A stretch of 43,312 bases of DNA from Giesbergeria sp. (GTDB lineage: Bacteria > Pseudomonadota > Gammaproteobacteria > Burkholderiales > Burkholderiaceae_C). The notes under the pieces were generated by a model that saw only the letters and a list, made by a program, of their open reading frames with translations, was not told where the DNA came from and ran no database searches. The stretch is taken from positions 1 through 43,312 of the forward strand of contig JAKLLE010000028.1 in assembly GCA_023150295.1 (NCBI GenBank). Direction: 5' to 3'. How positions within the stretch are numbered: position 1 is the first letter of the stretch; each line of letters starts with the position of its first letter. Shown here piece by piece: positions 2,039 through 12,362 of the stretch. The position numbers and the translations under genes are program-made.

Positions 2039-2244
2039 GGCGGGGTGGAACCAAGGGGAGAAAACGCCCATTGTGCAGCCCCGGGTGATCGGTGGGGGCA
2101 AGGGTTGATACCAGAGGGAGCGGTGCGGGCCATGCTGGGGTGCTCCTGCCGGACCGACGCGCCATAGGGTCAATGGGCGCCATGGCAGGCGTTCGCCACG
2201 CGCTGTTTCTAGAATGTTTCGCCTCACCGACCACAAAGCCCACC

Positions 2245-5200
2245 ATGACCCAGGGAACCATCCGCATCCGCGGCGCACGCCAGCACAACCTTCAAAACCT
2301 GGATGTGGATTTGCGCACCGGCGAACTCACGGTGGTCTCCGGCCCCAGCGGCTCGGGCAAGTCCAGCCTGGTGTTCGACACGCTCTACGCCGAGGGCCAG
2401 CGCCGCTATGTCGAGACCTTCAGCGCCTACGCGCGCCAGTTCCTCGACCGCATGGACAAGCCCGCCGTGGACAAGGTGGAGGGCGTGCCCCCGGCGATTG
2501 CCATCGACCAGACCAACCCGGTGCGCAGCTCGCGCTCCACCGTGGGCACGATGACGGAGCTGAACGACCACCTCAAGCTCCTGTTCGCACGCCTGGCCGT
2601 GCTGTACGACCGCGCCACCGCGCTGCCCGTGCGCCACGACACGCCCGAGACCATCTACGCCGAGCTGCGCGCACGGGCACAAGCCGACGACCCCCGCCTG
2701 GTGGTGACCTTCCCGGTCGAACTGCCCGCCAACACCAGCGCCGAGCAACTGGAGCAGTGGCTGTCGGCCAGCGGCTTCACCAAGGTGCAGGCCGAGCGCG
2801 AGGCTTCGGGCGTCAAGCTGCTGGACGTGGTGGCCGACCGCTTCCGCCTGGGCAATGCGGAAAAAGCGCGCGTTGTCGAGGCCATCGAGGTCGCGCTCAA
2901 GCGCGGCGGCGGACGCATGAATGTGTACCGGCTGGTGGAGCAGGGCGAGCCCGAGGTGTGGAAATTCTCCACCGGCCTGCACTGCCCCGAAAGCGACCTG
3001 CGCTACAGCGAGCCGCTGCCCTCCATGTTCTCGTTCAACTCCGCTGCCGGGGCCTGCGACACCTGCCGCGGTTTTGGCCGCGTGATCGGCGTGGACTACG
3101 GCCTGGTCATCCCGGACGAGAAGAAGACCCTGCGCAACGGCGCCATCAAGGCCATCCAGACGCCCGCCTGGCAGGAATGCCAGGACGACCTCATGCGCCA
3201 CGCCGAGGCCGCGGGCATTCCGCGCGACACACCCTGGTACCGCCTCACGCCCGAGCAGAAGCAGTGGGTGATCGACGGCTCGCCGCACTGGAACGGCAAG
3301 TGGAACCAGCAGTGGTACGGCATCAAGCGCTTCTTCGAGTACCTGGAGACCAAGGCCTACAAGATGCACATCCGCGTGCTGCTGTCCAAGTACCGCAGCT
3401 ACACGCCCTGCCCGGTGTGCGCGGGCGCGCGCCTCAAGACCGAGAGTCTGCTCTGGCGCATCGGCAGCAAGCAGGATGCCGACGCCGTACTCGACCCGGC
3501 CCAGCGCTTCCTGCCCCAGGGCCTGCCCTGGAGCCGCGCCCAGCTCGAAGCGCTGCCCGGTCTGTGCCTGCACGACCTGATGCTGCTGCCCATTGCGCGC
3601 CTGCGCCGCTTCTTCGACCGCATGGCCGAGGCGCAGCGCGCGTCAAATGCTACTGAATTGATAGCTGTTGGCGCAACAGATACGGGCGCTGGAGGCACAT
3701 TTGGCATAGAAAAACCCGGCGCCCCGTCCGCCGAAGCTCAGGCCCTGCGCCTGCTGCTGGACGAAATCTGCACCCGATTGCAGTACCTCTGCGACGTGGG
3801 CATTGGCTACCTCACGCTGGACCGGCAAAGCCGCACGCTCAGCGGCGGTGAGGTGCAGCGCATCAACCTCACCACGGCGCTGGGCACCTCGCTGGTCAAC
3901 ACGCTGTTCGTGCTCGATGAGCCCAGCATCGGCCTGCACCCGCGCGACATGGACCGCATCACCCAGGCCATGCTGCGCCTGCGCGACGCGGGCAACACCC
4001 TGGTGGTGGTGGAGCACGACCCGGCGGTCATGCTGGCGGCGGACCGCGTGCTCGACTTCGGCCCCGGCCCGGGCGAGCGTGGCGGCCACATCGTGTTCGA
4101 CGGCACGCCCGACGCGCTGCGCAGCGCCGACACCCTGACCGGCCAGTACCTGGGCGGGCGCAAGCGCATTGCCCTGGGCCTGCCGCGCGCCGTGGGCGAC
4201 GCCACGCCGCGCCTCATCCTTGAAGGGGCGAGCGAGCACAACCTGCAGCACCTGAACATTGAATTCCCCCTGCAGCGCCTGGTCTGCGTCACCGGCGTCA
4301 GCGGCTCGGGCAAGTCCACGCTGGTGCAGGACGTGCTGGCCCCCGCGCTCTTGCGCCACTTTGGCAAGGCCACCGAAACCCCCGGCCGCCACGACCGGCT
4401 GCTGGGCGCCGACCACCTTTCCGACGTGGTGTTTGTGGACCAGACCCCCATCGGCAAGACCGCGCGTTCCAACCCCGTGAGCTACGTGGGCGCGTGGGAC
4501 AGCATCCGCGAACTCTTTGCCGCCACGCCCCAGGCCGCGCAGCGCGGCTACACCCAGGCCAAGTTCAGCTTCAACAGCGGCGACGGGCGCTGCCCCACCT
4601 GCGGCGGCTCGGGCTTCGAGCATGTGGAGATGCAGTTCCTCAGCGACGTCTATCTGCGCTGCCCCGACTGCGACGGCAAGCGCTACCGCCCCGAGATCCT
4701 GGAAATCACCCTGGAGCGCGGCGGGCGGTCGCTCAGCGTGGCCGACGTGCTGGAGCTGACCGTGAGCGAAGCCATGGCCTGCTTCGCCCAGGACCGCGAC
4801 GTGCTGCGCGCGCTGCGGCCCATTGCCGAGGTGGGGCTGGACTACGTCAAGCTCGGCCAGCCCGTGCCCACGCTCAGCGGCGGCGAGGCCCAGCGCCTCA
4901 AGCTGGCGGGCTTTCTGGCCGAGGCGGCGCGCACGCAAAGCAAGTCGCGCCAGCCGCTGGCGCGCAAGGGCACGCTGTTCCTGTTCGACGAGCCGACCAC
5001 CGGCCTGCACTTCGACGACATCGCCAAGCTAATGCGCGCCTTCGTGCGCCTGCTGGAGGCGGGGCACTCGCTCATCGTCATCGAGCACAACCTCGACGTG
5101 ATCGGCGCCGGCGACTGGATCATCGACCTGGGTCCCGAGGGCGGCGACGCGGGCGGGCAACTCGTGGCCGAGGGCTCGCCGCAGGACTTGCGCGCCCACC

Positions 5201-8200
5201 CCCAGTCGCACACCGGCGCCGCGCTGCGCGCCTACGACGGCGCCATCGGTGCCAGCGAAGCGCTGCCGGTGCTATTGAATCAGGAGCGCCTCGCGCAATC
5301 AAAACGGGCGCTAGGAGCCTGTCGGAATTGGGGCGTCGAAAGCGAAAATTGGCCCCAGCGAGGACAGTTTTTGCCGGACTTGCAGCCCCATAGCGGGGCT
5401 ATGGGGCAAAAAGACGGTGAAAAATGGACCGCTGCGGCCAATTTGCAGCCGACGATTCCCAAGTCCGACAGGCTCCTGGAGGCCAAAAACACCATAGAAA
5501 TCGTCAACGCCCGCGAGCACAACCTCAAGGGCCTGAGCGTGGACATTCCGCGCGGCCAGTTCAACGTCATCACCGGCGTCAGCGGCTCGGGCAAGTCCAC
5601 GCTGGCGTTCGACATTTTGTTCAACGAAGGCCAGCGCCGCTACCTCGAATCGCTCAACGCCTACGCGCGCAGCATCGTGCAGCCCGCCGGGCGGCCCGAG
5701 GTGGACGCCGTGTACGGCATTCCGCCCACGGTGGCGATCGAGCAGCGTCTCTCGCGCGGCGGGCGCAAGAGCACCGTGGGCACGACCACCGAGGTCTGGC
5801 ACTTTTTGCGGCTGCTCTACGTCAAGCTCGGCGTGCAGCACTGCACCAAGGACGGCGCTGCCGTGCAGCCGCAAACGCCCGAGCGCATCGCTGCGCAGCT
5901 GCTCACCGAGTTCCGCGGTCAGCACATCGGCCTGCTGGCGCCGCTGGTGGTGGCGCGCAAGGGCGTCTATACCGAGCTGGCCGACTGGGCGCGCCCGCGC
6001 GGCTTCACGCACCTGCGCGTGGACGGCGAATTCCTGCCCACCTCGGGTTTCCCGCGCATCGACCGCTTCAAGGAACACACCATCGAGCTGCCCGTGCTGA
6101 GCCTGGATGTGGCGCCCGAGAATGAAGCGGCACTGCGCGAGGGACTGGCCCAGGCGCTTACGCATGGCAAGGGTGTGGTGCATGTGCTCAGCCACCTGGA
6201 CGGCCTGCGCGAGGCCCTGGCGGCGGGCGCGCCCACGGCGGGCATCGGGCGGCTGCAGGTGTTCTCGGCCAAGCGCGCCTGCCCGGTGTGCAGCACGAGC
6301 TATGCCGAGCTTCAGCCTTCCCTGTTCTCCTACAACAGCAAGCACGGCTGGTGCCCCGACTGCGTGGGCACGGGCGTGAAGCTGACCAAGGAGCAGCGCA
6401 AGGTGTTCGACGACTCGGTGCTTGCCGACGACCAGAAGGGTCGCGAGCAGACCTTCGCCGAACCCGAGGTGGACGACCTGCAGGACACTGCCTGCCCCAG
6501 CTGCCAGGGCTCGCGCCTGAACGCTACGGCGCGCGCCGTGCGCTTTGGCGCCGATGCGGCCACGGGCCACGCGGGCTGGAGCATTACCGACATCGCGCGC
6601 CTGTCGGTCAGCGACATCCGCGCCTGGGTGGACACCGTGGCGCTCGCGGGGCGCGAGGCCGAGATCGCACGCGACCTGATCCCCGAGATCCGCAGCCGGC
6701 TCGAATTCCTCGAAGAAGTGGGCCTGGGCTACCTCACGCTGGACCGGGGTGCGCCCACGCTGTCGGGCGGTGAGGCCCAGCGCATCCGCCTGGCGGCGCA
6801 GCTGGGCAGCAACCTGCAGGGCGTGTGCTACGTGCTCGATGAGCCCACCATCGGCCTGCACGCACGCGACAACCAGATTTTGCTGCGCGCGCTGCGCCAG
6901 CTCAGCAGCAAGGGCAACACCCTGGTGGTGGTGGAGCACGACGAGGACACCATCCGCGCCGCCGACCACCTCATCGACATTGGCCCGAGCGCGGGCAAGC
7001 GCGGCGGGCGCCTGGTGGCCCAGGGCGGCGTGGCCGACCTGACCGGTACCGAGGATTCGCAGACCGGCCGCTACCTGCTGCACGCCATGCGCCACCCGCT
7101 GCAGGCGCGCCGCCCGGTTTTGCCTCCCCTCTCCCCCAGCGGGAGAGGGGCAGAGGGGGCGGGCGCAGGAGGCGCGGCGCCAGATCACCCCCTCTCCCCA
7201 GCCCTCTCCCGCGAGGGGAGAGGGAGTGCATGCGCGGTCGTTCCGTCCGCTGCTGCGGTGCTGGGTTTGCCTCCCCTCTCCCCCAGCGGGAGAGGGGCCG
7301 GGGGAGAGGGGGTGGGCGCAGGAGGCGCGGTGCCAGATCACCCCCTCTCCCCAGCCCTCTCCCGCGAGGGGAGAGGGAGTGCATGCGCGGTTGATCCGTC
7401 CGCTGCTGCGTTGCTGGGTTTGCCTCCCCTCTCCCCCAGCGGGAGAGGGGCCGGGGGAGAAGGGGTGGGCGCAGGAGGCGCGGCGCCAGATCACCCCCAC
7501 TCCCCCACCCTCTCCCGCGAGGGGAGAGGGGGTGAAGCAGCCGGGGCTCCGGCCCCATCCAGCGTGGAGAGTGAAGGCATGGCGGTGCGCTGGCTCACCG
7601 TGCACGGCGCGCAGCTGCACAACCTGCAAAACGTGACCGCGCGCGTGCCGCTGCAGCGCCTCGTCGCCGTCACGGGCGTGAGCGGCTCGGGCAAGTCCAC
7701 GTTGGCGCGCGACGTGCTGCTGGCCAACGTGGCCGCCTGGGTGCAGCAGCGCAGTACCAAGGCCGGGCGCGACGCCATGGACGCGGGCAACGCGCCCGCG
7801 CTCATCGGCTGCACCGGCCTGCAGGGCTTCGAAACCATCGACCGCGTGCTCGAAGTGGACCAGACGCCCATCGGCAAGACCCCGCGCTCTTGCCCGGCCA
7901 CCTACATCGGCTTCTGGGACACCGTGCGCAAGCTGTTCGCCGAAACGCTGGAGGCCAAGGCGCGCGGCTACGCGGCCGGGCGCTTCAGCTTCAACACCGG
8001 CGAGGGCCGCTGCCCGGTGTGCGAGGGGCAGGGCGTGCGCACCATCGGCATGGCCTTCCTGCCCGACGTGAAAGTGCCCTGCGAGGCCTGCCACGGCGCG
8101 CGCTTCAACCCCGAGACGCTGGCCGTCACCTGGCGCGGCAAGAGCATTGGCGACGTGCTGCAGATGGAGGTGGACGAGGCCGTGGACTTCTTCGCCAGCA

Positions 8201-8649
8201 TGCCGAGCATCGCCCACCCGCTGCAACTGCTCAAGGACGTGGGCCTGGGCTACCTCACGCTGGGCCAGCCCAGCCCCACGCTCAGCGGCGGCGAGGCACA
8301 GCGCATCAAGCTCGTGACCGAGCTCACCAAGGTGCGCGACGAGGTGGGCCGGCGCGGCCAGAAGGCGCCGCACACGCTCTACGTGCTCGACGAGCCCACC
8401 GTGGGCCTGCACATGCAGGATGTGCACAAGCTCATCCGCGTGCTGCACCGCCTGGTCGATGGCGGGCACAGCGTGGTCGTCATCGAGCACGACCTCGATG
8501 TGATCGCCGAAGCCGACTGGATCATCGACCTGGGCCCCGAGGGCGGCGCGGGCGGCGGGGGCATTGTGGCCGCAGCCCCGCCCGAAGACGTGGTCCGCCT
8601 GGGCACGCACACCGGCGTGGCGCTGGGGCCGGTGCTGGCGCGGGGATGA
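2245..8649 (+). CDS. uvrA: Tandem UvrA-type excinuclease ATPase (four ABC modules)
   Basis: A 2134-residue protein, about twice the length of normal UvrA (about 940). It is built as two complete UvrA units in a row. Walker A motifs lie at about residues 33 (GPSGSGKSS), 684, 1111 and 1811 (GVSGSGKST). All four LSGGE(A/V)QR signatures and the Walker B/D-loop DEPxxGLH are present. Zinc-type CxxC pairs are complete in modules 2, 3 and 4, but in module 1 the first pair reads C247-P-E-S. UvrA binds damaged DNA with UvrB in nucleotide excision repair. Long four-ATPase UvrA paralogs occur in Burkholderiales, and a standard uvrA probably exists elsewhere, so the role of this copy is inferred. Low-complexity in-frame insertions at about residues 468-490, 1010-1087 and 1627-1762 are repeat-derived. 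The start is an ATG directly before TQGTIRIRGARQHNL, the usual UvrA N-terminus. Confidence 0.9.
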   Translation: MTQGTIRIRGARQHNLQNLDVDLRTGELTVVSGPSGSGKSSLVFDTLYAEGQRRYVETFSAYARQFLDRMDKPAVDKVEGVPPAIAIDQTNPVRSSRSTVGTMTELNDHLKLLFARLAVLYDRATALPVRHDTPETIYAELRARAQADDPRLVVTFPVELPANTSAEQLEQWLSASGFTKVQAEREASGVKLLDVVADRFRLGNAEKARVVEAIEVALKRGGGRMNVYRLVEQGEPEVWKFSTGLHCPESDLRYSEPLPSMFSFNSAAGACDTCRGFGRVIGVDYGLVIPDEKKTLRNGAIKAIQTPAWQECQDDLMRHAEAAGIPRDTPWYRLTPEQKQWVIDGSPHWNGKWNQQWYGIKRFFEYLETKAYKMHIRVLLSKYRSYTPCPVCAGARLKTESLLWRIGSKQDADAVLDPAQRFLPQGLPWSRAQLEALPGLCLHDLMLLPIARLRRFFDRMAEAQRASNATELIAVGATDTGAGGTFGIEKPGAPSAEAQALRLLLDEICTRLQYLCDVGIGYLTLDRQSRTLSGGEVQRINLTTALGTSLVNTLFVLDEPSIGLHPRDMDRITQAMLRLRDAGNTLVVVEHDPAVMLAADRVLDFGPGPGERGGHIVFDGTPDALRSADTLTGQYLGGRKRIALGLPRAVGDATPRLILEGASEHNLQHLNIEFPLQRLVCVTGVSGSGKSTLVQDVLAPALLRHFGKATETPGRHDRLLGADHLSDVVFVDQTPIGKTARSNPVSYVGAWDSIRELFAATPQAAQRGYTQAKFSFNSGDGRCPTCGGSGFEHVEMQFLSDVYLRCPDCDGKRYRPEILEITLERGGRSLSVADVLELTVSEAMACFAQDRDVLRALRPIAEVGLDYVKLGQPVPTLSGGEAQRLKLAGFLAEAARTQSKSRQPLARKGTLFLFDEPTTGLHFDDIAKLMRAFVRLLEAGHSLIVIEHNLDVIGAGDWIIDLGPEGGDAGGQLVAEGSPQDLRAHPQSHTGAALRAYDGAIGASEALPVLLNQERLAQSKRALGACRNWGVESENWPQRGQFLPDLQPHSGAMGQKDGEKWTAAANLQPTIPKSDRLLEAKNTIEIVNAREHNLKGLSVDIPRGQFNVITGVSGSGKSTLAFDILFNEGQRRYLESLNAYARSIVQPAGRPEVDAVYGIPPTVAIEQRLSRGGRKSTVGTTTEVWHFLRLLYVKLGVQHCTKDGAAVQPQTPERIAAQLLTEFRGQHIGLLAPLVVARKGVYTELADWARPRGFTHLRVDGEFLPTSGFPRIDRFKEHTIELPVLSLDVAPENEAALREGLAQALTHGKGVVHVLSHLDGLREALAAGAPTAGIGRLQVFSAKRACPVCSTSYAELQPSLFSYNSKHGWCPDCVGTGVKLTKEQRKVFDDSVLADDQKGREQTFAEPEVDDLQDTACPSCQGSRLNATARAVRFGADAATGHAGWSITDIARLSVSDIRAWVDTVALAGREAEIARDLIPEIRSRLEFLEEVGLGYLTLDRGAPTLSGGEAQRIRLAAQLGSNLQGVCYVLDEPTIGLHARDNQILLRALRQLSSKGNTLVVVEHDEDTIRAADHLIDIGPSAGKRGGRLVAQGGVADLTGTEDSQTGRYLLHAMRHPLQARRPVLPPLSPSGRGAEGAGAGGAAPDHPLSPALSREGRGSACAVVPSAAAVLGLPPLSPSGRGAGGEGVGAGGAVPDHPLSPALSREGRGSACAVDPSAAALLGLPPLSPSGRGAGGEGVGAGGAAPDHPHSPTLSREGRGGEAAGAPAPSSVESEGMAVRWLTVHGAQLHNLQNVTARVPLQRLVAVTGVSGSGKSTLARDVLLANVAAWVQQRSTKAGRDAMDAGNAPALIGCTGLQGFETIDRVLEVDQTPIGKTPRSCPATYIGFWDTVRKLFAETLEAKARGYAAGRFSFNTGEGRCPVCEGQGVRTIGMAFLPDVKVPCEACHGARFNPETLAVTWRGKSIGDVLQMEVDEAVDFFASMPSIAHPLQLLKDVGLGYLTLGQPSPTLSGGEAQRIKLVTELTKVRDEVGRRGQKAPHTLYVLDEPTVGLHMQDVHKLIRVLHRLVDGGHSVVVIEHDLDVIAEADWIIDLGPEGGAGGGGIVAAAPPEDVVRLGTHTGVALGPVLARG
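3645..3714 (+). repeat. Dispersed Comamonadaceae-type palindromic repeat inside uvrA
   Basis: An AT-richer stretch with the core ctactgaattgatagctg followed by gcgc, gggcgct and ggaggc. It is out of character with the surrounding GC-rich codons. It matches related copies at about 5271, 17216, 21500, 30207, 33903 and 37866. Here it is translated in frame as a linker in the first UvrA unit (about residues 468-490). It lies at a non-conserved position between the zinc region and the first ABC signature. Confidence 0.7.
5271..5503 (+). repeat. Dispersed repeat copy split by a small inverted-repeat element
   Basis: The left part (5271-5312) begins gctattgaat and ends gggcgct. The right part (5478 onward) begins ggaggccaaaaa. 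Joined, they recreate the gggcgct-ggaggc junction seen uninterrupted in the copy at 3645-3714. The element at 5313-5477 therefore appears to have inserted into an older repeat, which itself sits in the linker between the two UvrA units. Confidence 0.65.
5313..5477 (+). mobile_element. MITE-like element with 20-bp terminal inverted repeats inside uvrA
   Basis: The left end aggagcctgtcggaattggg (5313-5332) and the right end cccaagtccgacaggctcct (5458-5477) are reverse complements at 19 of 20 positions. The element is 165 bp, exactly 55 codons, so the uvrA frame stays open through it. It encodes no protein of its own in any convincing frame. A short internal palindrome around 5389-5408 (gccccatagcggggc) is present. 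No clear target-site duplication was found. Confidence 0.7.
7123..7530 (+). repeat. Three tandem REP-like palindromic units in frame in uvrA
   Basis: Units begin at 7123, 7270 and 7423, each with cctcccctctcccccagcgg, and contain two inverted CCTCTCC/GGAGAGG pairs. The spacings of 147 and 153 bp are both multiples of three, so the reading frame is kept. The 6-bp difference comes from a missing segment in unit 1. The array adds about 136 residues rich in P, S, G and A (repeating PPLSPSGRGA and PLSPALSREGRG) between the third and fourth ABC modules. Elements of this GGGAGAGG palindrome type are usually intergenic in proteobacteria. Confidence 0.85.
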
Positions 8650-8764
8650 GGAAATTTCCCTACGCGCCCTCACTGCTGGGATCGCTGCCCCCAAGGGGAC
8701 GGCTTTGCATCTTTGGGTGGCCCGACGATGAAGAGAGTGGGTAGCGGCGAGTAAGCTTGTGCCC

Positions 8765-8886
8765 ATGCTCGACGACATCAAAAAGCCCTCTGGGCCTCCG
8801 CCGACAAGCTGCGCGCCAACATGGACGCGGCCGAATTCAAGCTTCTGGTGCCCTGCCTCTTCTTCGTCAGGAGCATCTCTGACACG
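8765..8886 (+). pseudogene. Remnant of type I methyltransferase hsdM (5' end only, frameshifted)
   Basis: ATG at 8765 opens MLDDIKK. After loss of one base near 8783 the next frame continues as [19 protein letters not shown] and then SISDT. Together this is the characteristic N-terminus of HsdM subunits of type I restriction-modification enzymes. Only about 40 codons remain of a roughly 500-codon gene, and no catalytic NPPF/Y motif follows. The fragment runs directly into an hsdS-like tail, so an internal deletion removed most of both genes. The HsdM-like stretch is distinctive, so I am fairly sure of the identity. Confidence 0.75.
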
Positions 8887-8892
8887 GAAGCG

Positions 8893-8985
8893 GGGTTGAA
8901 CGAGTCATCCACCCAACTGCTCTCCACCTGCCGCGATACCGTGCTCCCTCGTCTAGTCTCCGACCAGCTGAGGCTGCGAGGTGAA
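8893..8985 (+). pseudogene. Remnant of type I specificity gene hsdS (3' end only)
   Basis: In the frame continuing from the hsdM scar, residues [20 protein letters not shown] and then VSDQLRL resemble the C-terminal segment shared by many HsdS proteins (x-LRDTLLPKLISGELRL). No stop codon separates this tail from the downstream ATPase frame, so the hsdS terminator has been lost or altered. The match is short, so the assignment is less certain than for hsdM, but the gene order M then S is as expected. Confidence 0.6.
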
Positions 8986-9027
8986 TTTGAGGCACACTTT
9001 TCCTTCCAAACGCACCCAGGCAAAGTC

Positions 9028-10284
9028 ATGGCCTTATCTACAGCAGTCCCTCGCATCGAATACCTGAAGGTTCAGAACTTTCGGGCTCTGCAGAACATTG
9101 AGCTCAAGAACATCACGCCCTTGACGGTGCTGCTGGGGCCCAATGGCAGCGGCAAGTCCACCTTGTTTGATGTATTCAACTTTCTGTCTGAGTGCTTTCA
9201 AGGGGGGCTGCGCCAGGCGTGGGATCGGCGAGGCCGTGGGCGCGAGCTTAAAACCCGTGGGGTGCAGGGGCCTGTGATCATCGAGATCAAGTACCGCGAG
9301 CGCCCCAAGACGCCGCTCATTACCTACCATTTGTCGATTGATGAAACGCCCAAGGGCCCTGTGGTGGCAGAAGAATGGCTGGAGTGGCGCAGGGGGTCTT
9401 TAGGCCGTCCCTTTAAATTCCTAACCTACCGACACGGTATGGGCAGCGTGGTGAGTGGCGACCAGCCCGATGAGAGCGATCAGCGGCAGGAGGTGCCCTT
9501 GCGCGGCCCCGATCTGATTGCGGTCAACACGCTGGGACAGATTGCCCAGCACCCCCGTGTGGCTGCGCTGCGCGACTTCATCACCGATTGGTATGTGTCT
9601 TATTTGTCGGTGGACAACACTCGCTCGCAACCGGAATCGGGCCCGCAAGAGCGACTGTCAAAAACCGGCGATAACCTGGCCAATGTCATTCAATACCTGA
9701 AGGAGAGCCACCCCGAGCAGTTGGAGCGGGTGATGGAGGTGCTGCGTGAGCGCATCCCCCGGCTGGAGCGAATCGACGCGACGCCGATGCCGGATGGCCG
9801 CTTGCTGCTGCAGGTGAAGGACGCCCCGTTCGAGCAGCCAGTGCTGTCCAAGTTTGCATCCGATGGTACCTTGAAGATGCTTGCCTATTTGACGGTGCTG
9901 TACGACCCGATGCCGCCCCAGTTTGTGGGTATTGAGGAGCCTGAGAATTTTTTGCACCCTAGGTTGTTGCCTGAGCTGGGAGAGGAGTGTCGATTGGCCT
10001 CTGAGCGCACGCAGCTGTTGGTGACCACGCACTCTCCGTTCTTTTTGAACAGCTGTCGCCCAGAGGAAGTGCGCATCTTGTACCGAGACGATCAGGGCTT
10101 CACCCAAGCCCGCTCGGCGAGCGACATCATTGGCATCAAGGAGTTCATGGCGGCAGGGGCCTCTTTGGGACACTTGTGGATGGAGGGCCAGTTTGGTATG
10201 AGCGATCCGCTGCGCAACCAGGGCGCTCCATGGTCGCTCCAGAGCGTGGAACCGCAAGGTAAGCGGGGGCGCCGTGGCCGTTGA
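9028..10284 (+). CDS. AAA (AAA_21-type) ATPase of a two-gene ATPase/TOPRIM cassette
   Basis: A 418-residue soluble ABC/SMC-like ATPase. The N-terminus [17 protein letters not shown] is typical of OLD/RecF-like ATPases. Walker A is GPNGSGKST (37-45), a signature-like segment SDGTLK lies near 278, Walker B is IEEPE (302-306), and an H-loop histidine is at 335 in VTTHSP. It overlaps the following DUF4276 gene by 11 bp, so the two are translationally coupled. ATPase plus TOPRIM partners are the architecture of several phage-defence systems (PARIS AriA/AriB is an established example), but I do not claim this is PARIS. The ATG at 9028 was chosen because the upstream part of the same frame is the hsdM/hsdS scar. 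A weak AGG lies upstream. Confidence 0.85.
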
Positions 10285-10885
10285 TACCCTGTATGTGTTG
10301 GTGGAAGAGCCGTCTATGGAGGAGGCTTTGCAACGCCTGCTGCCCAAGATGCTTGGACAGGGCGTTACGGCAGAGATTCGGCAGTTTCAGTGCAAGGACG
10401 ATTTGCTCAAACAGCTGCCCCAGCGTCTGATGGGTTATGCCCAATGGCTGCCAGACACGGCCAAGGTGCTGGTGATCGTGGATCGGGATGACGATGACTG
10501 CCTGCAGCTCAAGGACCGTCTGGAGCAGATGGCCCACAAAGCCGGTCTGGGAACGCGGCAACGCCAGGTTCAGGGGCAATTTCAGGTCATCAATCGTATT
10601 GCCATCGAGGAACTGGAAGCCTGGTTTTTTGGCGACTGGGAGGCTGTGCGCACGGCCTACCCCAAAGTGGACAACAGTGTTCCCCAAAGGGCTGGATACC
10701 GTAACCCCGATGCCATCAAAGGTGGCACCTGGGAGGCACTCGAGAGAGAGCTCCAGAAGAAGGGCTATTTCAAGCAAGGTTTGCGCAAGCTGGAACTGGC
10801 GCGAAGCGTTGCGAGTCATATGGATCCGGCGCGGAATCGATCCCAGAGCTTTTGTTGCCTGCGCGATGCCTTGGCGCAGATTTGA
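10274..10885 (+). CDS. DUF4276-family TOPRIM-like putative nuclease
   Basis: A 203-residue protein with the hallmarks of DUF4276: an N-terminal acidic motif V10-E-E (TOPRIM glutamate position), [11 protein letters not shown] with D70 and D72 (the D-x-D metal site), and [11 protein letters not shown] (112-121), the family's signature. It starts at GTG 10274, inside the end of the ATPase gene. A downstream ATG (residue 15) would remove the acidic motif and is unlikely. As a TOPRIM-fold protein it probably cuts nucleic acid under control of the adjacent ATPase. That role is inferred from analogous pairs. Both genes are full length while every flanking restriction gene is broken. Confidence 0.8.
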
Positions 10886-10917
10886 TGCCCCGTTCCGCTG
10901 ACGCAGGTAGTATTTTC

Positions 10918-11112
10918 ATGAAAACACCTCTTGGCAAACTTGAGCGTATCCAATTGCGCAAGGCTTGGATCCATGAGGCTGGCGAGTTCACTTCATGGCT
11001 GGCGCAAGCAGAAAGCCTGCGCAAGTACAAGTACCCGCCGGATCAGCAGGATGCGGCGGTGGATTTGGTACTGCAACAGGCGCAGGCGTTGGGCGAGAGC
11101 TGGGCCGCATGA
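10918..11112 (+). pseudogene. Chimeric remnant: DUF4268-like N-terminus joined to the hsdR C-terminus
   Basis: This 64-codon open frame has two halves. LGKLERIQLRKAWIHEAGEF resembles the start of DUF4268 proteins that accompany type I systems. It is followed within a few residues by SLRKYKYPPDQQDAAVDLVL, matching the C-terminal end of HsdR (kYgYPPDkQ..A...VL.QAe.L...W). The fusion point is near 11010. One deletion would thus have removed most of a DUF4268 gene and nearly all of hsdR. A product could be made, but no function is expected. Its stop overlaps the next gene's ATG. Confidence 0.65.
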
Positions 11113-11465
11113 CATCCGGCGAGCCACCCCCCGGCTGTCAGGTGGTGCACTGGCACCCGGAGGCCCCGCCCAAGCCCGCAGAGGGCGCGCCCTGCAATGG
11201 CTGCGGCCTGTGCTGCCTGGCCGAGCCTTGCCCGCTGGGGGTGCTGGTGTCACGTCGGCGCACAGGGCCGTGTGCTGCGTTGCGCTGGAGCGAGGCAGAC
11301 GGGCGCTATCTCTGCGGCATGGTCCAGGAGCCCGGCGCGGTGACCGGCTGGACGTGGCCCTGGGCCGTGCGCTGGCAAAAGGCCTTGGCGCGGCGATGGA
11401 TTGCGGCGGAGGTGGGGTGCGACGCCAGCCTGCAGGCGCAGGCTCCCAGTCCCCCATCGGGCTGA
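11109..11465 (+). CDS. Small YkgJ-like Cys-cluster protein
   Basis: A 118-residue protein with GAPCNGCGLCCLAEPCPLG in its first third, the C-x2-C-x2-CC pattern of the YkgJ-type putative zinc/iron-chelating family, and two further cysteines (GPCAALRW, YLCGMV). The ATG overlaps the stop of the hsdR remnant (ATGA), and no signal peptide is visible. The Trp-rich middle and the final PSPPSG look unstructured. The biochemical role of this family is unknown. The overlap with the relic suggests it was already the neighbour of hsdR before the island decayed. Confidence 0.7.
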   Translation: MTSGEPPPGCQVVHWHPEAPPKPAEGAPCNGCGLCCLAEPCPLGVLVSRRRTGPCAALRWSEADGRYLCGMVQEPGAVTGWTWPWAVRWQKALARRWIAAEVGCDASLQAQAPSPPSG

Positions 11466-11471
11466 CCCAGG

Positions 11472-12362
11472 TCAGACGCCCGGCACCGCCACGCGCACCG
11501 TCCAGATGGCTGCTTCGCGGGCGTTTTTTCGCAGGTGCTCGTGAAAATCCGGGGCCACACACAGAAACAGGGTGTGGCCGTCGGGGCCGCCCAGGGTGCA
11601 GGCAAAGACGCCCATGTCACCGGTGGAGATTTCGTCCAGCACTTTGCCGCCTTCGGCCACGCGCAGCACCCGGCGGCCAATGGCATCTGCCAGCCACACA
11701 GCGCCCTCGGCGTCCAGCGTGGCGCCGTCAGGGGCCACCTTGGCCTGGGGAATCACCGTGGCCAGCTCGCGCCCTTCGGGCAGGGGGCCAAACACCGCCC
11801 AGTCCCGGCGCGGCCCCAGGCCATGGTCGGGGTGCACGTCAAAGGCCGAGATGCGGTTGCCAAACGTCTCGACCACGATGAGGGTCTTGCCGTCGGGCGT
11901 GACCATGGCGCCGTTGGGAAAGTACAGGCCATCGGCAACGTTGCGCACCGCGCCTTCGGGCGACACGCAGGCCAGGCTGGCGGTCTCCACGGGCGCACCG
12001 CCCATCAGGTCGAAACCGAAATTGCCCACGTAGGCATGGCCGTGGCGATCGACGGCCATGTCGTTGGCGTGGCCCCTGGCAACGCCCGAGAGGTCGGCGT
12101 GCTCAACGATGCGGCCGTCGGCTTCGCGGCGCAGCAGCTTGCGGTCGCGCATCGAAACGATGAGCAGCCGCCCATCGGGCAGCCATCCCAGGCCCGATGG
12201 TTGTTCAGGCACTTCGGCCATTTTTTCCACCTGCCCATCCATGCCCACGGCGATGACTTGGTGGGTATAGAAATCCGACAGCCACAGACGGCCTTCGCGC
12301 CAGCGCGGGCCTTCGAGAAAGGTGTAGCCAGAAACCAGGGTTGCAAATTCGGGGGATGCCAT
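11472..12362 (-). CDS. SMP-30/gluconolactonase (LRE)-type beta-propeller protein
   Basis: A 296-residue protein. FLEGPRWREGRLWLSDF near the N-terminus carries the metal-binding glutamate (EGPxW) of the SMP-30 family. HANDMAVD (metal Asn/Asp site), GLYFPNGAMVTPDGKTL and LDAEGAVWLAD follow, the usual order of blades. Members are lactonases acting on sugar lactones or related esters, but the substrate cannot be read from the sequence. It has no signal peptide and is therefore cytoplasmic. It is co-oriented with the ctlX-like gene upstream (about 85 bp gap) and ends 6 bases from the convergent Cys-cluster gene. Confidence 0.88.
   Translation of the reverse strand: MASPEFATLVSGYTFLEGPRWREGRLWLSDFYTHQVIAVGMDGQVEKMAEVPEQPSGLGWLPDGRLLIVSMRDRKLLRREADGRIVEHADLSGVARGHANDMAVDRHGHAYVGNFGFDLMGGAPVETASLACVSPEGAVRNVADGLYFPNGAMVTPDGKTLIVVETFGNRISAFDVHPDHGLGPRRDWAVFGPLPEGRELATVIPQAKVAPDGATLDAEGAVWLADAIGRRVLRVAEGGKVLDEISTGDMGVFACTLGGPDGHTLFLCVAPDFHEHLRKNAREAAIWTVRVAVPGV

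Follow-up and report, generated by a model that had tools for sequence, protein, structure and literature searches.

An intact gene pair inside a collapsed type I operon

A 43,312-nt stretch of contig JAKLLE010000028.1 of Giesbergeria sp. (assembly GCA_023150295.1), hereafter the window, carries a complete pair of overlapping genes for an AAA ATPase and a DUF4276 protein among the remnants of a type I restriction-modification operon. By sequence, the pair is a member of the PADLOC candidate system HEC-01. It is probably a self-contained conflict module of two genes, which pairs an ABC ATPase of the OLD type with a TOPRIM nuclease, would act when triggered by phage and has survived under selection after the deletion of its carrier.

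The first gene (9028..10284, plus strand) encodes an ABC/OLD-type AAA ATPase of 418 aa that resembles HEC-01A (PADLOC PDLC04182, E = 2.9e-161; Pfam AAA_21, 5.3e-31). The second (10274..10885, plus strand), which starts with GTG and overlaps the first by 11 nt, encodes a HEC-01B-like DUF4276 protein of 203 aa, a predicted TOPRIM nuclease (PDLC04202, 2e-87; Pfam DUF4276, PF14103, 5.9e-37). An earlier note on this DNA had described a complete, overlapping cassette with AAA_21 and DUF4276 domains, and the PADLOC and Pfam searches bear out both points. The G+C content of the pair is 57-59%, compared with 67% in the window. Across 51 aligned rows, the ATPase residues G37, N39, G40, G42, K43, T45, S278, G280, E303, E304 and H335 are invariant, and the protein has the complete ABC motif set of Walker A, SDG signature (S278, G280), EE Walker B and switch histidine. 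The Walker B motif reads IEEPEN, and H335 is the switch. The nearest folds in PDB to the ATPase structure model (predicted local distance difference test, pLDDT, 87.4) are those of PtuA (E = 1.4e-13). A promoter scan of 8600-11600 gave a single site, on the minus strand, that did not rise above shuffled sequences.

Both sides of the pair are occupied by plus-strand stubs, and profile and DNA matches confirm the identities previously proposed for them (hsdM 5′, hsdS 3′, DUF4268-like 5′ and hsdR 3′). The hsdM stub (8764..8885), recognized by its DNA match to hsdM, covers about the first 41 codons and is drifted and frame-shifted, with one base missing early; over 123 columns it is 87% identical in DNA to the hsdM gene on a plasmid of Acidovorax carolinensis (E = 9e-32, with a one-base gap), while its 44-aa frame by itself has no Pfam match. 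An internal deletion joins it to about 30 codons of the hsdS 3′ end (8896..8981; Specificity_I, 2.9e-5; tblastn, 7e-5; 79% DNA identity over 66 bp). On the right-hand side, a single in-frame open reading frame (ORF) of 64 aa fuses the ends of two genes. Its first part is a 33-codon 5′ stub of a PDC-S11/DUF4268 gene (S11; 10918..11016; PDC-S11 profile, residues 1-34, 3.7e-10), and its second is an hsdR 3′ stub of about 30 codons with the stop in its usual place (11017..11112; T1RH-like_C, 3.4e-6, 27.1 bits with the cut-off at 26.8), 84% identical in DNA over 99 columns to the hsdR of a homologous locus, L032. No full-length hsdM, hsdS or hsdR for a functional type I restriction-modification system was found in the window, only these stubs of tens of codons.

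The stubs were also considered as chance matches, a possibility ruled out by their E-values and by reversed HsdM, HsdS and HsdR queries. The reversed queries gave nine matches in 107 sequences, none in the stub loci and all in loci with long type I genes (L036, L037, L060, L073, L100, L103, L120 and L133). HsdR matches within the DUF4276 coordinates were rejected as an artefact of stop-to-stop HsdR queries that extend upstream into DUF4276 in another frame.

The earlier note had proposed comparison with a relative that still bears type I genes, and the cassette fits an operon of this kind in L054, a Burkholderiales metagenome-assembled genome whose DUF4276 protein is 88-89% identical to that of the window. 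The L054 operon, with its hsdM cut by the contig start, reads hsdM-PDDEXK-hsdS-ATPase-DUF4276-S11-(421-aa frame on the opposite strand)-hsdR. Its full-length S11 protein is a DUF4268 protein, with 80% DNA identity to the S11 stub over 102 bp, and the ATPase start at 9028 is also present there. In the window, that ATPase ORF lies within a 487-aa open frame from 8821, so that the left-hand stub reads in frame into the ATPase, and the TGA at 8982 is the counterpart of the L054 hsdS stop but out of frame with the hsdS stub. Window positions 8982-11018 are colinear with L054 at 82.6% DNA identity, and positions 11018-11093 match the 3′ end of the L054 hsdR about 5.5 kb further along. Because of this colinearity and the displaced hsdR match, the window looks like a type I operon of the L054 kind after two internal deletions.

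Constraint on the pair and drift of the hsdM stub

Sequence comparison supports purifying selection on the pair while the hsdM stub drifted. Against L054, the ratio of nonsynonymous to synonymous substitution rates (dN/dS) is 0.035 for the ATPase and 0.057 for DUF4276, at a dS of about 1, and the window and L054 pairs are equally distant from the outgroup L032 (dN of 0.130 and 0.129 for the ATPase, 0.238 and 0.243 for DUF4276). The hsdM stub is changed at 6 of 16 positions that are invariant in 14 intact HsdM proteins, each of which, when left out in turn, is changed at 0 or 1 position. The pair has no change at positions invariant in 13 homologues beside type I genes (0 of 169 in the ATPase, 0 of 47 in DUF4276), while those homologues, left out in turn, are changed at 0-10 and 0-3 positions, respectively. 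The contrast between 6/16 in the stub and 0/216 in the pair gives a Fisher probability of 3.9e-8.

Some observations weigh against this interpretation. The hsdR stub is changed at 0 of 9 invariant sites and the hsdS stub at 1 of 6, and the evidence of decay lies mainly in 33 hsdM codons that may have decayed before the deletion. In addition, some relatives have copies that seem to have decayed: in Verminephrobacter (L122, 5826-7771) each of the two genes is broken into overlapping frames, and in L110 (1248-3127) DUF4276 is split with the ATPase frame whole. The few changes in the hsdS and hsdR stubs and the predominance of third positions among the S11-stub differences (14 of 20) indicate that the collapse is not very old. 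The same third-position excess and unchanged hsdR stub, together with the 79-87% DNA identity that the stubs still share with functional relatives, would fit deletions too young for the pair to have decayed, with no selection at all. We consider such an origin very unlikely in view of the six changed residues and one-base loss in the hsdM stub against none in the pair. Had the pair drifted by 0.09 per site, it should carry 6.7 stops, and the probability of finding none is 0.0012, although this rate is a rough estimate from 33 codons and the probability is 0.22 at a rate of 0.02.

The earlier note had taken the survival of the cassette as a sign that it works without the restriction enzyme. Intactness alone is weak evidence for that if the collapse is recent; the constraint on the pair during the drift of the hsdM stub, and the homologous pairs without type I genes described below, argue in its favor. 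Such a naturally stripped copy beside drifted stubs serves as a natural deletion experiment that separates the module from its carrier, and the prediction is that the pair by itself should protect a laboratory strain.

A putative TOPRIM nuclease and its relation to known systems

Weak profile matches, conserved residues and topology partly support a TOPRIM fold for DUF4276, as the earlier note had suggested. Residue E11 is conserved in 92 of 93 aligned rows and D70 and D72 in all 93, so the catalytic residues presumed in that note do hold in an alignment. The structure model (pLDDT 93.4) runs strand-helix-strand-helix-strand-helix-strand; E11 follows the first strand and the DxD motif ends the third, an order that fits the TOPRIM topology. 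Profile comparison with hhalign gave 9.1e-5 against OLD TOPRIM and 1.1e-4 against RloB; unrelated and reversed controls scored no better than 0.13. A paralogue of DUF4276 in the same genome is matched by the OLD-like_TOPRIM hidden Markov model (5.2e-4). A Foldseek search of the viral library BFVD with the model found an RloB-like protein (E = 3.8e-3, probability 1.00, template modelling scores of 0.48/0.46). Other results count against the assignment: the hhalign probabilities are just 59% for OLD TOPRIM and 56% for RloB, the match of the paralogue scores 22.7 bits, just below the curated cut-off of 23.2, and the same model search gave no match to the DUF4276 protein of the window. Nor does the PDB fold search lend support, as Foldseek returned nothing at E ≤ 0.001 (best 0.051) and no TOPRIM-named entry among the 50 matches listed. 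A search of PDB sequences with DUF4276 gave nothing usable.

Both window genes match HEC-01 profiles best, and HEC-01 likewise consists of two adjacent genes. Among the matches listed for the ATPase, HEC-01 profiles take the first ten places (best 2.9e-161) and AriA comes next at 6.3e-30; DUF4276 matches 13 PADLOC families up to an E-value of 1, all of them HEC-01. The name presumably stands for Hma-embedded candidate. Embedding of that sort was not found in the window, where the pair stands alone in a collapsed type I operon with type I stubs only, but membership by sequence stands because the name reflects discovery. In the literature searched, we found no published test of HEC-01 and no mention of DUF4276; one paper on bacterial defence names HEC-01 as a genome annotation.

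Among better-known systems, AbiL pairs the ATPase AbiLi with the RloB/TOPRIM protein AbiLii, and PARIS also joins an ABC ATPase, AriA, to a separate TOPRIM protein, AriB. The window ATPase matches the AbiLi profile at 1.1e-24, and the DUF4276 profile and model resemble RloB; this similarity is only distant, as neither RloB (PF13707) nor AbiLii is among the families that DUF4276 matches up to an E-value of 1. PARIS is set apart by the far better score of the ATPase as HEC-01A than as AriA and by the lack of any AriB match to DUF4276 up to the same E-value. The complete ABC motifs of the ATPase also recall the dyads of OLD-ABC ATPase and TOPRIM protein that, in the relevant passages of PMC12839542, lie inside BREX as backup suicidal effectors; homologues of the pair occur inside BREX as well (e.g. 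L065), while the pair in the window fits a type I carrier. Two-gene defence pairs embedded in type I operons are already in print, as excerpts on TgvAB and DarTG2 illustrate (PMC11411939, PMC12255303), DarTG2 lying between hsdS and hsdR. Their enzymes are unrelated to the window pair, and the type I systems around them are described in those excerpts as active or complete. What this locus contributes is the survival of a pair in a collapsed carrier, with a parallel at the same site in another genome.

By analogy, the pair is most likely an abortive-infection module that would work like AbiL or PARIS. The comparisons support a sequence in which the pair reached the site between uvrA and a cysteine-cluster gene within the hsdS-hsdR interval of a type I operon, two internal deletions then took nearly all of hsdM and hsdS and of S11 and hsdR, and the pair stayed under purifying selection. 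The ATPase would serve as both sensor and restrainer by binding the DUF4276 protein, and a phage-derived trigger would cause an ATP-driven rearrangement that frees or activates a two-metal TOPRIM nuclease (E11, D70, D72). This nuclease might then cut nucleic acid, perhaps tRNA as AriB does according to a passage in PMC12409363, and halt the infected cell. In this scheme, the type I, BREX and Hma-like operons would be carriers, the module needing none of their enzymes in cis.

Genomic contexts of homologous pairs

The sample of homologous loci comprised 20 of 29 matches, retrieved with wide flanks, and the best 80 of 424 relatives, and leans to close relatives. Before counting, L033 and L034 (the same loci as L057 and L106) and the plasmid records L052 and L053 were removed. 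This left 98 loci, 39 of which fell short of 5 kb on one side; contexts were counted in the 59 with at least 5 kb on both. Type I sets were found in 10 of these, BREX in 6, other methylase systems in 2, type I remnants in 2 and a partial or other type I arrangement in 1, with none recognized in 38. A type I set was called complete with hsdM of at least 1000 bp, hsdS of at least 900 and hsdR of at least 2400; hsdM is cut by the contig in L054 and in pieces in L120. The ATPase precedes DUF4276 in 101 of 102 homologous loci, the exception being L059, where DUF4276 lies 142 bp downstream of the contig start. The pair is hence not tied to type I genes, and the freestanding state is the commonest in the sample, which makes the cassette of the window less special than the earlier note had implied. 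That note had also held loci without type I genes to speak against an independent module; such loci exist, and they argue for the independence of the pair, since HsdMSR in cis is not required.

Placement inside other operons varies. The order is PglX-pair-PglZ-BrxL in L065, the pair lies in the PglXI/BrxHI interval in L042 and L047 and in the PglZ/BrxL interval in L086, and, among the 59 full-flank loci, an Hma-like context is seen in L102 alone and, more loosely, in L043. One could therefore suppose that the pair is an accessory that guards type I or BREX systems against anti-restriction proteins, and that in this genome it acts in trans for a different modification system. Part of PMC12839542 describes PARIS as sensing Ocr, and the genome of the window has six N6_Mtase matches outside it (five strong, one weak), because of which such help in trans is possible and which tell against an independent module. 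This role seems quite unlikely to us, as 38 of 59 full-flank loci lack any such operon recognized by profiles, and HsdR with the C-terminal family of the stub occurs in the genome only as that stub. A PADLOC scan of 82 proteins neighboring the pair in these 38 loci found no family in more than two, among the matches listed for 25 of 50 families. As one of the 82 is a PglZ, some few of these loci may sit in systems missed by the profiles.

On a tree of 68 rows built by a quick method, with 15 open forks (L040, L122 and L129 left out; 10 short-flank loci, plasmid L052 and the window added), context changes at least 18 times, against a possible minimum of 4 and a mean of 29.3 after shuffling. Because 18 is below the shuffled value, context appears partly inherited yet often changed. 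The five-row clade of the window alone includes type I (L054, L032, L056), collapsed (window) and unrecognized (L055) contexts. Further collapse around an intact pair is seen in L079 (hsdS 3′ end, 3e-6; hsdR 3′ end, 7e-8) and, as a weaker case, in L061 (hsdS 3′ end, 2.9e-5; hsdR 5′ end, 3e-4), where hsdR matches beyond DUF4276 are at 3e-4 or weaker after removal of the artefact. L129, one of the two remnant loci among the 59, retains no more than a piece from the middle of hsdS, over 1 kb upstream of the ATPase.

Two further loci are worth recording. The Meiothermus plasmid L052 (3799-15656) has a single type I operon that holds the pair together with DUF262, DUF4433 and macro-domain genes, the latter two presumably DarT- and DarG-like. 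The genome of the window itself carries a second, divergent HEC-01 pair (G000:C85, L051 8546-10311; ATPase of 397 aa, PDLC04144, 3.6e-222; DUF4276 of 191 aa, PDLC04143, 3.4e-80), which adjoins a DinG-like helicase and has no type I genes recognized in the flank retrieved.

The chromosomal site in congeneric genomes

The island lies between a double-length uvrA-like ORF (2092..8649, plus strand; NCBIfam UvrA) and a small cysteine-cluster gene (11109..11465, plus strand; YkgJ-like by eye), whose ATG overlaps the hsdR stop codon and whose related DNA adjoins uvrA at the empty site. Surroundings of uvrA were retrieved from 14 of 25 congeneric genomes. The site is empty in three of them, G023, G015 and G001, with uvrA and the cysteine-cluster gene almost adjacent, the arrangement seen in L197, L198 and L199. 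The gap is about 0.5 kb in G010. Other contents are a deacetylase-caspase-TPR protein in G003 and transporter, hydrolase and regulator genes (by eye) in G013, while seven of the 14 congeners had no right-flank match within the retrieved stretch.

In G017 (L196, G017:C46:9000-15700), the site holds a different type I island, also collapsed, whose ends are those found in the window (DNA identity of 88% for the hsdM 5′ end and 84.7% for the hsdR end plus flank gene). Its hsdM ends after about 90 codons, hsdS is fragmented and hsdR lacks its middle; between hsdM and hsdR are open NTase_sub_bind, nucleotidyltransferase and AlbA_2 ORFs, with no ATPase/DUF4276 pair in the island. The simplest reading is that one carrier brought different cargo and decayed in both species. 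Compared across genomes, this site, either vacant or with a collapsed island around one or the other of two pairs, shows how defence islands turn over.

The open NTase_sub_bind and nucleotidyltransferase ORFs retained in G017 would also fit addiction, in which the ATPase restrains DUF4276 as in a toxin-antitoxin pair, loss of the ATPase is lethal, and phage defence is secondary or absent. PMC10440598 counts AAA/TOPRIM and AAA/RloB pairs among toxin-antitoxin pairs and describes RloB/TOPRIM toxins restrained by AAA proteins, with AbiL as a case, and the split DUF4276 beside a whole ATPase in L110 is as expected if the toxic half goes first. Addiction, however, guards against loss of the ATPase alone and not against joint loss or mutation of the toxin, and DUF4276 is itself strongly constrained; its 47 unchanged invariant sites suggest that its effector activity is wanted. 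We rate addiction as unlikely and prefer a phage-triggered module. A broader and more tentative possibility is that modification-based operons (type I, BREX and Hma-like) carry small lethal modules that routinely outlive them and remain as freestanding, selected defences. The window, L079, L061 and G017 would then show successive stages of this process, with many freestanding HEC-01 pairs as its end states. Embedded pairs can, in any case, be mistaken for helpers of the host operon.

Two minor observations concern the site and its flanks. In a close relative (L194, 2277-5087), the deacetylase-caspase-TPR protein that occupies the same site is 936 aa long; its domains are polysaccharide deacetylase, caspase (C14) and TPR. 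Within the window, the uvrA-like ORF (2185 aa) contains an in-frame, GC-rich tandem repeat of 153 bp in 2.8 copies at 7119-7534.

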